Positions 1,335 to 37,534 of a stretch of DNA of 39,725 nucleotides are shown here, piece by piece. The DNA lies in assembly GCA_029055625.1 (NCBI GenBank), contig JAIDCY010000114.1, positions 1 through 39,725 on the forward strand, read 5' to 3'. Origin of the DNA: Ruminococcus sp. GTDB taxonomy: Bacteria; Bacillota; Clostridia; Oscillospirales; Ruminococcaceae. How positions within the stretch are numbered: the first letter of the stretch is position 1; the number at the start of each line of letters is the position of its first letter. Both the position numbers and the translations under genes were made by a program. A model generated the notes under the pieces. The model was not told the DNA's origin and searched no databases. It worked only from the letters and a program-made list of their open reading frames with translations.

Positions 1335-2414
1335 TTATTCAGCGTGAAAAAGTTCGGCTATCGCTTTTTCGTCGATTCCTGAACCTATTACGCATAGTCT
1401 GCCGATAGTTCCCGCACTTCCACGGCGTATATCCGGCGTATTCGGTACGTAATCAAAGTGAATCCATTCGCCGTCAGTGGACGGTACTATACCTTTCGCA
1501 CGTAAAATCATACCGTATTCGCTGAAATCCGACAGACTTTCAAGAGCGTTCCTGATTTCATCTTCTGTATAAGGTCTTGCGGTTTCCTTACCCCAGCTTG
1601 TGAAAACGTCGTCAGCGTGGTGGTGATGATGATGTTCATGATGTTCATGACACCCACACGTACAATCTTCACCGTGTTCGTGTTCGTGGTGTTCGTGATG
1701 ATGTTCTTCTTCGTGTTCGTGGTCGTGACAATGACATTCTTCACCGTCTTCATGGTGATGATGTTCATGATGATGTTGATGTTCTTCATGGAGCAGGTGT
1801 TTTAATTCGTCGTCAAGCGTATTTTTCTGTGTCATTGCGTCAATGAGTTGAGAACCGGTAAGCTGTTCCCACTCCGTCGTAACAATCGGTGCGGACGGGT
1901 TACATACACGCAGACGTTTTATGCAGTCGTCGAGTTTTTCCTGTGAAACGCCTTTAGTATGGCTCAGTATCAGACAGCTTGCATAGGTTATCTGATTATC
2001 AAAGAATTCGCCGAAGTTTTTCTGATACATCTTGCATTTCTTAACATCTACTACGGTAGTGAAGCCGTCAAGTTCTACGTCGTGAAGATGAATATTCTGT
2101 ACCGCCTTTATAACGTCGCTTAACTTGCCCACTCCGGAAGGTTCAATCAGAACACGGTCGGGGTGGTACTGTTCTATTACCTGTTCAAGAGCCTTTCCGA
2201 AATCTCCAACAAGACTACAGCAGATACAACCGGAATTCATTTCCGTAACCTCTATACCGGCATCCTGAAGAAATCCGCCGTCAATGCCAATCTGTCCGAA
2301 CTCGTTTTCAATAAGTACGAGTTTTTCCCCCTGGTAACCCTCGGAAATCAGTTTCTTTATCAAAGTAGTCTTACCTGCTCCGAGAAATCCGGAAAAAATT
2401 GTAATTTTCGTCAT
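1335..2414 (-). CDS. COG0523 (CobW/ZNG1-type) metal-chaperone GTPase with a His-rich tract
   Basis: This is a 359-residue G3E-family GTPase that by family precedent loads or inserts metal, often zinc, into client proteins. It has the P-loop GFLGAGKTT near the N-terminus, the family CxCC motif in SGCICCS (about residue 65), and a Glu-rich switch segment IENEFGQIGIDG. Around residues 210-270 lies a long low-complexity insert of His, Glu, Asp and Cys, an obvious metal-binding tract. The CobW C-terminal domain follows. I chose the ATG at 2414 rather than the upstream GTG at 2423 because AAAAGAAG lies 8-9 nt before the ATG. It leads a two-gene operon with its own promoter and a palindrome in the leader, compatible with metal-responsive control. 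Zinc is the most likely ligand, but nickel or cobalt are not excluded. Confidence 0.9.
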   Translation of the reverse strand: MTKITIFSGFLGAGKTTLIKKLISEGYQGEKLVLIENEFGQIGIDGGFLQDAGIEVTEMNSGCICCSLVGDFGKALEQVIEQYHPDRVLIEPSGVGKLSDVIKAVQNIHLHDVELDGFTTVVDVKKCKMYQKNFGEFFDNQITYASCLILSHTKGVSQEKLDDCIKRLRVCNPSAPIVTTEWEQLTGSQLIDAMTQKNTLDDELKHLLHEEHQHHHEHHHHEDGEECHCHDHEHEEEHHHEHHEHEHGEDCTCGCHEHHEHHHHHHADDVFTSWGKETARPYTEDEIRNALESLSDFSEYGMILRAKGIVPSTDGEWIHFDYVPNTPDIRRGSAGTIGRLCVIGSGIDEKAIAELFHAE

Positions 2415-2445
2415 ATAAAACACTTCTTTTCTTTATATATTCGCC

Positions 2446-2461
2446 ACCGTATCCGTACGGT
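2446..2461. promoter_or_regulatory. Palindrome in the COG0523 operon leader
   Basis: ACCGTA and TACGGT form a perfect 6-bp inverted repeat with a 4-nt spacer. It sits 10 nt downstream of the -10 box, where a repressor would block transcription. It does not match a Zur or Fur box that I recognise, so the regulator is unknown. Confidence 0.4.
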
Positions 2462-2471
2462 ACGTAATACT

Positions 2472-2500
2472 ATTATATCACCCTTTACCGAAAAATGCAA
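2472..2500 (-). promoter_or_regulatory. Promoter of the COG0523 operon
   Basis: On the minus strand, TTGCAT and TATAAT are spaced by 17 nt, with TGA directly before the -10 (extended -10). Confidence 0.75.
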
Positions 2501-2549
2501 GTATTATTTTGGGTATAATTAGTAAAATTTGAAAACTTTAAAAAATTAC

Positions 2550-2578
2550 TGGAAATTTTATCGGAAGTGTGTTATAAT
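2550..2578 (+). promoter_or_regulatory. Promoter of the oxaloacetate decarboxylase operon
   Basis: TGGAAA, 17 nt, then a perfect TATAAT preceded by TGT (extended -10). It lies 33 nt upstream of the oadA start. Confidence 0.65.
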
Positions 2579-36668: not shown

Positions 36669-36687
36669 AATATATTCTCCTTTCGTA

Positions 36688-36708
36688 TGTTATGTAATTA
36701 TTATAACA
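36688..36708 (-). promoter_or_regulatory. Possible copA -10 region within an inverted repeat
   Basis: TGTTAT and ATAACA are inverted around a 9-nt centre and overlap a minus-strand TATAAT at 36700-36705. No good -35 is present at 17 nt, which could mean an activated promoter. It does not match a CopY box. Confidence 0.35.
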
Positions 36709-36762
36709 CGGAAAATATATTGAAATCATAAAAGTTGCATACGGTTGACAAAAATTTAACAA

Positions 36763-37110
36763 TTATTTTATAACATTCCAGTCGGATTCCTTAAAGCCGA
36801 CGAATACGTTATTATCTGTAACTAAAACAGGCCTTTTTACTAACATTCCGTCAGTTGCGAGAAGTTTTAACTGTTCGTCCTCTGACATCTCCGGCAGTTT
36901 ATCTTTAAGATTCATGGATTTGTACAGCATACCGCTTGTATTAAAGAATCTCTTCAACGGCAGACCGCTTCTGCTGTACCATTCTTTCAGCTCCTCGTAA
37001 GTCGGATTATTTTCTTTTATATCCCTTATGGTGTATTCAATGCCGTTATCGTCAAGCCATTTCTGAGCTTTTTTACAGGTTGTACACTTCGGATAGCATA
37101 CGTATAACAT
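36763..37110 (-). CDS. ArsC/Spx-family thioredoxin-fold protein
   Basis: The 115-residue protein starts with YPKCTTCKKAQKWL, a CxxC redox motif (Cys9, Cys12). It also has the family blocks FFNTSGMLYKSMNLKDK and DGMLVKRPVL. It matches the Firmicute arsenate reductase-like family (YusI/YffB type), which is usually not shown to reduce arsenate; Spx regulators are shorter on this signature. AAAGGAGG precedes the ATG. It is the third gene of the ligA operon. Confidence 0.88.
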   Translation of the reverse strand: MLYVCYPKCTTCKKAQKWLDDNGIEYTIRDIKENNPTYEELKEWYSRSGLPLKRFFNTSGMLYKSMNLKDKLPEMSEDEQLKLLATDGMLVKRPVLVTDNNVFVGFKESDWNVIK

Positions 37111-37123
37111 TAATATTCCTCCT

Positions 37124-37534
37124 TTAATTACTACAGACCATTATTTCAATATCGGTATCGCTGAAAATATTTCTTACCTGCTCCGATACTGTTTCCCAGT
37201 CCAGACCGTCGAGACCACACGCAATATGTGGCATCGCAATTTTTCTGATATTTTTTTCCGTGACCTGTTTTTTCAATCCGTACAGGCTTTCAATAACGCT
37301 ATCCATAGTAGGTTTGTTACGCCATGTCTTTTTAGTAACGAGATTGAAAACCCTGTCAATGAGTATACAGTTTCCGGATTGTCCGGAGTTACGGAGTTTT
37401 TTTTTCATGTCGAAACGCTTATTAAATTCAAGGGCTATACCCTTACCCAGTACGAAATCAGCACTTACACAATGAACTAAATAATAGTCTTCCGGTACTG
37501 AAAACAGGTCTCTTATTTCTTCGTGATACGTCAT
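37124..37534 (-). CDS. TARG1-like macrodomain protein (ADP-ribose hydrolase type)
   Basis: The 136-residue single macrodomain has the ADP-ribose loop [17 protein letters not shown], then LVTKK (Lys68) and CGLDGLDW (Asp109). These are the positions of the lysine and aspartate used by TARG1/DarG-type hydrolases that remove ADP-ribose from protein or DNA. The ATG overlaps the ligA stop by 4 nt (ATGA), with GGAGA in the end of ligA, so the two are translationally coupled. No DarT-like toxin is encoded in the window. The substrate is an inference. Confidence 0.85.

Follow-up and report, generated by a model that had tools for sequence, protein, structure and literature searches.

The 7-mer GAGCAGG is a genome-signature motif of a Ruminococcus sp. 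(assembly GCA_029055625.1), a conclusion that is firmly supported and holds genome-wide, and we tentatively read it as a strand-read, Chi-like recombination signal for which the AddAB enzyme is the proposed reader. The analysis started from a stretch of 39,725 nucleotides of this organism, contig JAIDCY010000114.1, which we call the window; the draft genome to which it belongs (2,505,683 bases in 151 contigs) is called the window genome. Below, GAGCAGG is the core and CGGAGCAGG is the 9-mer in which it was first noticed, and genomes, loci and contigs are cited by our own numbers with the prefixes G, L and C. The strict core, its maintenance at synonymous sites, and the mutual avoidance of neighboring copies in the same orientation are among the observations behind this reading.

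Copy number and definition of the word

The window holds 20 exact copies of the 9-mer, the first starting at 2374 and the last ending at 37185, with 9 on the plus and 11 on the minus strand, in agreement with the count in an earlier note on this DNA. That note had estimated that well under one copy is expected by chance, and dinucleotide shuffles indeed give 0.09 (none of 100 reached 20); its four additional copies, in which the first C is replaced by T (TGGAGCAGG), were also recovered. The core is present 38 times in the window against 1.09 expected. Over all contigs of the window genome, the 9-mer was found 555 times (278 on the plus and 277 on the minus strand) and its reversed word 10 times (5 on each), and the core was found 1593 times in 2.51 Mb (798 and 795), i.e., one per 1.6 kb, against 58 and 58 for its reversed word.

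We read 630 kb of the window genome in detail, the window included, and used sub-samples of 392 kb and 614 kb for some of the counts; genes were called with an open reading frame (ORF) caller made for this analysis, and the leading strand was inferred from GC skew. GAGCAGG is the top over-represented 7-mer in the 392 kb (272 copies vs. 19.4 expected). In the 614 kb, with the motif masked, its 407 copies are about 23 times the Markov expectation (17.8 for order 3 and 16.6 for order 4). A single-base change within GAGCAGG brings the count down to about background: all one-mismatch words together number 575 in the same masked sample, where the expectation is 575 for order 3 and 527 for order 4, so that they show no excess. 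One-mismatch words at expectation next to such an excess of the core suggest all-or-none recognition of a G-rich 7-mer. An apparent depletion of these words (0.54 under the synonymous null) was gone with the Markov models after masking and was dropped.

The flanks of the core are graded, with C in 50% and G in 59% of copies at the two bases on its 5' side and T in 48% just 3' of it. CG before the core is also preferred in G124, G140, G002, G122 and G123. The strict unit is thus GAGCAGG, best as CGGAGCAGGT, with CG before and T after as graded preferences. The extended consensus proposed earlier was right in that extended flanks are real, but it is better written as CG-GAGCAGG-T, with G avoided directly before it.

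Coding context and maintenance in near relatives

The copies of the 9-mer in the window encode the peptides reported for them before (TEQ, AEQ, SEQ, GAG, PAP, LLR and ACSG). The frames with the largest numbers of copies are the sense frames for Glu-Gln and Gly-Ala-Gly, as they would be if codon-pair preference, protein motifs or base composition made the word, but this explanation is practically eliminated by synonymous-codon shuffles, under which 368 cores compare with 61 expected (~6-fold) and 132 9-mers with 6.4 (~20-fold), and by the excess of cores over these shuffles in each of the six frames (e.g., 26 vs. 0.7 in sense frame 2). The earlier statement that the copies are not due to protein conservation therefore holds. 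There is no preference for spacers in the 614 kb: 40 of 407 cores (9.8%) and 17 of 149 9-mers (11.4%) fall there, against 13.7% non-coding sequence. Within 40 bp of each other, opposite-orientation pairs of cores are as few as 4 (~5.3 expected) in this sample, and opposite pairs of 9-mers number 3 (~0.7 expected), involving 6 of the 149 copies.

The nearest named relatives in a search with one protein of the window are mostly Ruminococcus, including one R. flavefaciens, and the best six loci have 80-90% identity. Loci L021-L026 were aligned to the window, with ~64-85% identity per segment, and other 7-mers in the same alignments served as background. The aligned cores are unchanged in 6 of 8 cases in L021 (background 43%), 8 of 10 in L022 (18%), 12 of 17 in L023 (21%), 4 of 10 in L024 (16%), 9 of 17 in L025 (16%) and 3 of 9 in L026 (17%). 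At amino acid-identical sites, the motif is kept in 32 of 42 cases over the six near relatives, where 5.7 are expected from the relative's codon usage. Conservation in sister genomes was one of the checks listed in the earlier note, and these data show that the word is kept in place by evolution in near relatives. Farther out it is mostly lost, the cores kept in L027-L032 being 0/6, 0/5, 0/4, 2/6, 0/3 and 2/3. A k-mer search over orthologous loci, for its part, is confounded by common ancestry.

Spacing and strand orientation of the sites

Gaps between cores are more even than those of any of 149 other words of like count (coefficient of variation 0.80, mean of the others 1.07). This evenness depends on orientation. 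Among pairs less than 1.2 kb apart in the window genome, same-orientation pairs number 121 against 174.6 expected (standard deviation, SD, 13.4) and opposite-orientation pairs 129 against 148.6 (SD 12.6). In seven other enriched genomes (177 sites; 10 or 11 stretches each of G124 and G140 and one locus each of G088, G123, G027, G117 and G122), the corresponding numbers are 26 against 46.6 (SD 5.9) and 45 against 39.3 (SD 5.7). Ranked with control words by same-orientation ratio, the core comes lowest of 200 in the window genome and fourth lowest of 682 in the seven others; of the three control words below it there, one overlaps the motif. A lower ratio of same to opposite pairs is found for 14 of 199 controls in the window genome and for 1 of 681 in the others. 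Between different genes, same-orientation pairs at 300-900 bp number 17 against 46.5. Overall, in the strongest genomes, copies in the same orientation tend to keep clear of each other up to a distance of ~1 kb, and no such avoidance is seen between copies in opposite orientations.

The near-equal orientation described earlier is real for the window genome, where cores are split 196:140, i.e., 58% are leading, compared with 73% for the other 104 base permutations. Under a leading-strand Markov model, the word is enriched on both strands (191 leading vs. 41.7; 112 lagging vs. 13.2, an 8.5-fold enrichment). Some weakly enriched relatives show a different picture: G031 and G035 have 33 leading cores against 18.7 expected and 2 lagging against 8.6, loci L027-L060 have 79 against 67.2 and 15 against 27.9, and in both sets the word ranks 3 of 105 permutations for polarity. 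The rank is 47 of 105 in L061-L100. In G002 and L022-L026, GAGCAGG is the top over-represented 7-mer among words with 3:1 polarity. The word is thus near-neutral where it is most amplified and leading-strand polar in some weakly enriched relatives, and the latter points to a Chi-like role.

Distribution across the genus

When copies of GAGCAGG are divided by those of its reversed word, 125 genomes of the genus give ratios between 0.24 (G020) and 15.8 (G140), a span of ~60-fold, and the window genome gives 13.7. Using AddB identity to the window genome as a measure of distance, ratios of at least 3.1 are found in G088 (82%), G124 (79%), G117 (75%) and G027 (73%), and in 9 of the 10 genomes at 60-68%, the exception being G138 (61%, ratio 1.65); the strongest genome, G140, had no AddB match in this search. 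At greater distance, ratios of at least 3.6 recur in G025 (52%), G125 (51%), G123 and G136 (48-49%) and G137 (37-40%, in two pieces), with many genomes at 51-55% identity lacking such a ratio. The ratio can overstate enrichment, as in G123, where it is 9.6 with 35 cores against 13.8 (Markov) and 15 9-mers against 1.2. This scatter with respect to AddB identity suggests that the reader of the word is probably old and variable in strength, or that enrichment arose more than once. With the idea of dialects in mind, 100-kb samples of G035 and G031 were searched, and no 7-mer of comparable amplification was found in them.

Two genomes deserve separate mention. G053, of another family in the same order, has 123 copies of CGGAGCAGG against 22 of the reversed word, which indicates some enrichment beyond the genus. 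In G020, GAGCAGG is depleted (60 vs. 248 for the reversed word); this genome is 86% complete and has neither a PilB-grade nor a ComEC match.

AddAB, competence and pilus genes

The window genome encodes AddA and AddB, both as full-length genes, in adjacent ORFs of locus L135. The AddA ORF (9488-13201) gives a full-length match to TIGR02785 with 698.7 bits against a cut-off of 707.65. The AddB ORF (6229-9537) matches TIGR02773 with a score of 524.8, below the curated cut-off of 903.7, as is the case in all 60 relatives searched, and it also matches the enzyme of B. subtilis, whose structure is known. According to the accessible part of PMC4824097, residues F68 and F210 of B. subtilis AddB are required for Chi; the corresponding positions, placed by counting on the alignment, are F in 10 of 10 aligned Ruminococcus AddB proteins.

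The competence genes that the earlier note had in view are also encoded. There is an intact comEC, a ComEA-type match above the family cut-off and, in L173 (contig C147, 65-15062), a type IV pilus locus with PilC-, PilM-, PilB- and PilT-type proteins, several pilin-like proteins and an S41-type peptidase; the PilB and PilC scores are below the equivalog cut-offs, and a prepilin-peptidase-like ORF in the locus is named from sequence alone, with no NCBIfam match. The pil gene content of the non-enriched G035 (L175) is similar by reading. According to the accessible part of PMC4471445, R. albus adheres to cellulose by means of a type IV pilin. ComEA is found in 122 and ComEC in 114 of the 125 genomes. 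ComEC was rejected as a discriminator of enrichment, being near-universal and having the enriched G136 and G137 among its 11 misses, 9 of which are less than 90% complete.

All 125 genomes have a T2SSE match, and 16 of them lack a PilB-grade match (best E no better than 2.3e-43). A ratio of at least 2 is seen in 0 of these 16 and in 41 of the 109 others (Fisher p 0.001, uncorrected for kinship, with the counts of the motif and the names of the 16 genomes transferred by hand). The association weakens to p 0.05 at a ratio cut-off of 3 (0/16 vs. 20/109) and to p 0.10 at 4, again without correction for kinship, and 10 of the 16 genomes are less than 90% complete. When only genomes with a completeness of 90% or more are considered, the ratio is 0.46-1.64 in the six that lack the match, and its median in those that have it is 1.55.

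A proposed Chi-like signal for AddAB

We propose that GAGCAGG, best as CGGAGCAGGT, may be a Chi-like signal that AddAB reads on one strand, a reading that we prefer to the others but give somewhat less than even odds. Starting from a broken end, AddAB would degrade the DNA as far as a GAGCAGG in the right orientation, and would there change over to producing 3' single strands for RecA. A copy would therefore be needed every few kb in each orientation, with little gain from another one close behind it. A Chi-like signal selected on both strands fits best with the strictness of the core, its location in genes, its maintenance, its orientation-specific spacing and its polarity in relatives. AddAB as the reader, the nuclease switch and the cause of the higher copy number in some lineages are the presumptive parts of this proposal.

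Like the Chi sites read by AddAB in other Gram-positive bacteria, GAGCAGG is short, strict, G-rich, asymmetric, over-represented and inside genes, it is leading-strand polar in some relatives, and AddAB is encoded. It differs in lacking polarity in the window genome, in its graded CG and T flanks and in a strength that varies widely within one genus; its recognition by AddAB is a prediction. Chi of B. subtilis is AGCGG. Chi of S. aureus, GAAGCGG in the accessible part of PMC8022716, has the same base composition as GAGCAGG. The same part of that source gives over-representation, core-genome preference and leading-strand polarity as marks of Chi. Here over-representation is evident and leading-strand polarity is seen only in some relatives. 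The known signals named there are from E. coli, H. influenzae, B. subtilis, L. lactis and S. aureus; this kind of signal is known from few bacteria, and none of the species named in that part is a clostridial gut anaerobe. In literature searches on Ruminococcus and Firmicutes, no such motif was found reported for this group by title or start of abstract among the papers listed, most subscription journals lying outside the literature searched.

Several observations weigh against the Chi-like reading. Leading-strand polarity is absent from the window genome, where the word ranks 100 of 105 permutations, and from G124, G140 and six pilus loci taken together (54 of 105); under the leading-strand model, G002 ranks 20 of 105 and L022-L026 rank 61 of 105. 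The spacing rule has exceptions: within single genes of the window genome, same-orientation pairs at 900-1500 bp are in excess (26 vs. 13.4), and larger samples of G122 and G123, which partly overlap the seven-genome sample, show no deficit (9 vs. 8.6 and 7 vs. 6.6). Chi of E. coli K-12 itself (126 sites in 550 kb) has no same-orientation deficit (1.60, controls 1.49), so that the spacing rule is not a known mark of Chi and is taken here instead to mark a signal read on one strand. Of the 125 genomes, 110 have an AddB match (E 1e-20), including all 68 of high quality, and in a comparison of the AddB Chi pocket between five enriched and five non-enriched genomes, no residue clearly separates them. 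AddAB alone therefore does not explain the uneven amplification; a Chi-like signal leaves the wide variation in strength unaccounted for, and AddAB is unproved as the reader.

If the Chi-like reading is true, a 7-bp signal with ~1,600 copies in one Ruminococcus genome would let the evolution of AddAB specificity be tested directly, because within a single genus its ratio to the reversed word goes from 0.24 up to 15.8. Linear DNA flanked by the word might also be protected or promoted in fiber-degrading gut bacteria that are hard to engineer.

A possible uptake signal and other explanations

The earlier note offered an uptake, a Chi or another signature sequence and favored the first; the signature motif stands firmly, whereas the spacers, inverted pairs and one-mismatch forms do not fit uptake. 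Under the uptake explanation, which we consider rather unlikely, a type IV pilus component would bind double-stranded DNA with CGGAGCAGGT, ComEA and ComEC would import it, and biased uptake together with recombination would multiply the word (molecular drive). The near-neutral orientation in the strongest genomes, the overall even spacing (the lowest variation of 150 words), the density of cores, the amplification that is uneven among lineages of one genus, the graded flanks, the three close inverted 9-mer pairs, the pil, ComEA-type and comEC genes of the window genome and the absence of ratios of at least 2 from genomes without a PilB-grade match are all in its favor. The last point is tempered by the weakening of the association at higher cut-offs, by the incompleteness of the genomes concerned and by the similar pil gene content of non-enriched G035.

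In the literature, uptake sequences are recognized by five marks: the copies are evenly spaced, have no preferred orientation and are in excess in non-coding DNA, ~10% of them form inverted repeats, and mismatched forms are also in excess (accessible part of PMC1939737; see also PMC7811141, likewise in part). Two of these five are seen here, even spacing only within orientations, and three are not. Compared with the uptake signal sequence (USS) of Pasteurellaceae and the DNA uptake sequence (DUS) of Neisseria, GAGCAGG is similar in its hundreds of copies on both strands, its overall even spacing and the presence of uptake genes, but it has no spacer excess, no excess of one-mismatch forms, unlike USS and DUS as described in the same part of PMC1939737, and few inverted pairs (the 9-mer pairs involve below about a tenth of copies), and its spacing depends on orientation. 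An uptake signal would thus account for the neutral orientation, the association with the pilus and a strength that differs among lineages, and would leave the remaining observations unexplained.

To our knowledge, an uptake signal of this sort would be the first in a Gram-positive bacterium. One form of it, in which a pilus-bound signal picks the imported strand by its orientation, is multiplied by biased import in pilus-bearing lineages and is spaced only relative to copies in the same orientation, appears improbable. Should the word be an uptake signal after all, mate recognition of that kind would extend to Gram-positive bacteria. Given this mixed fit to the marks of Chi and of uptake, we rank the Chi-like signal as the leading candidate and the uptake signal behind it, and do not file the word in either family; sequence cannot prove the choice between them.

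Another improbable explanation is an abundant signature word, linked to methylation or not, that is preserved by a protein which binds or modifies DNA outside recombination and uptake. Like HIP1 of cyanobacteria, GAGCAGG is an extremely abundant, clade-specific word, and its very high copy number, its location mostly inside genes and its patchiness by lineage would suit such a role. HIP1 is an octameric palindrome, according to a reference title in the accessible part of PMC1939737. GAGCAGG is not palindromic (its reverse complement is CCTGCTC), and its orientation-specific spacing suggests instead a signal read on one strand.

Less likely still is a segregation signal like the FtsK-orienting polar sequences (KOPS) or the SpoIIIE recognition sequence (SRS), which would steer an FtsK/SpoIIIE translocase to the terminus. 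GAGCAGG is, as these are, a purine-rich asymmetric word, it is polar in some relatives and depleted from the lagging strand of those in which it is not amplified (G031, G035 and L027-L060), and it differs in one base from the opening heptamer of the SRS of B. subtilis, GAGAAGGG. In the window genome, however, it is strongly enriched on both strands with a poor polarity rank, and its lagging-strand copies would misdirect such a translocase; moreover, GAGAAGG is near expectation there (leading 10 vs. 8.4, lagging 4 vs. 2.9).

Sites in the window and neighboring features

All copies of the word in the window are listed in Table 1. The four copies of the 9-mer assigned to spacers earlier (17244, 17262, 30901 and 33378) do lie there. 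The copy at 27032 was missed as genic by the ORF caller and is actually inside a SigK-like sigma-factor ORF.

Table 1. Copies of the 9-mer and of the core in the window, with the fate of the core in the aligned near relatives L021-L026
Feature	Position	Strand	Context	Core in near relatives
9-mer	2374-2382	-	sense in gene 1335-2423 (LGAG)	
9-mer	4466-4474	-	antisense in gene 4373-4774 (PAP)	
9-mer	4538-4546	-	antisense in gene 4373-4774 (PAP)	
9-mer	6612-6620	+	sense in gene 6140-7258 (AEQD)	
9-mer	7174-7182	+	sense in gene 6140-7258 (YGAG)	
9-mer	13319-13327	-	antisense in gene 12297-13598 (PLLR)	
9-mer	17244-17252	+	spacer; left arm of inverted pair, convergent genes	
9-mer	17262-17270	-	spacer; right arm of inverted pair, convergent genes	
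9-mer	20832-20840	+	antisense in gene 20357-20899 (DLLR)	core (20834) kept in L025
9-mer	27032-27040	-	sense in SigK-like ORF 26562-27260	kept in L021, L022, L023
9-mer	28045-28053	+	sense in gene 27201-29372 (TEQE)	kept in L022
9-mer	30110-30118	+	sense in gene 29419-30717 (TEQV)	kept in L021-L026
9-mer	30386-30394	-	antisense in gene 29419-30717 (ACSG)	kept in L021, not L022-L024
9-mer	30901-30909	+	spacer	kept in L021
9-mer	32541-32549	+	sense in gene 31031-33259 (TEQD)	kept in L021-L024
9-mer	33378-33386	-	spacer	kept in L023
9-mer	33843-33851	+	sense in gene 33401-34054 (TEQV)	
9-mer	34234-34242	-	sense in gene 34167-36668 (NGAG)	not kept in L023
9-mer	34708-34716	-	sense in gene 34167-36668 (IGAG)	kept in L023, L025
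9-mer	37177-37185	-	sense in gene 37124-37534 (SEQV)	kept in L023, L025
core only	813-819	-		
core	1791-1797	+	within T variant TGGAGCAGG at 1789-1797	
core only	2721-2727	+		
core only	2869-2875	-		
core only	8192-8198	-		
core only	10036-10042	-		
core only	12258-12264	-		
core only	15967-15973	+		
core	20448-20454	-	within T variant at 20448-20456	kept in L025
core only	22351-22357	+	antisense	kept in L022, L024, L025, not L026
core	24299-24305	-	antisense; within T variant at 24299-24307	not kept in L022-L026
core	24348-24354	+	within T variant at 24346-24354	kept in L022, L023, not L024
core only	29106-29112	+	sense (EQE)	kept in L021, L022, L023, L025, L026, not L024
core only	32324-32330	+	sense (EQA)	kept in L022-L025, not L021 or L026
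core only	35903-35909	-	sense (EQV)	kept in L023, L025
core only	36561-36567	+	antisense	not kept in L023
core only	37918-37924	+	antisense	kept in L023
core only	38690-38696	-	sense (RAG)	kept in L023

The inverted pair in the table had been taken for a terminator. It does fold as a hairpin, and with T-runs on both sides (17232-17282) between convergent genes it is likely a two-way terminator, but such pairs are rare in the genome. Terminator function was rejected as an account of the word, the window having one hairpin pair (17244-17270) and pairs being too few overall.

The ORF at 26562-27260 codes for a SigK-like sporulation sigma factor, with the subfamily model NF004471 above its cut-off, and adjoins a gyrase/topoisomerase IV-type pair (27201-29372 and 31031-33259). 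Several Ruminococcus samples (the window genome sample, G002, G122 and loci L028-L100) share among their top words another over-represented one, built around TCGGGATT (AATCCCGA), either whole or as its inner portion. GTGCGGA occurs 275 times in genes of the window genome sample against 66.5 after synonymous shuffling and ranks second among 7-mers there, behind GAGCAGG.

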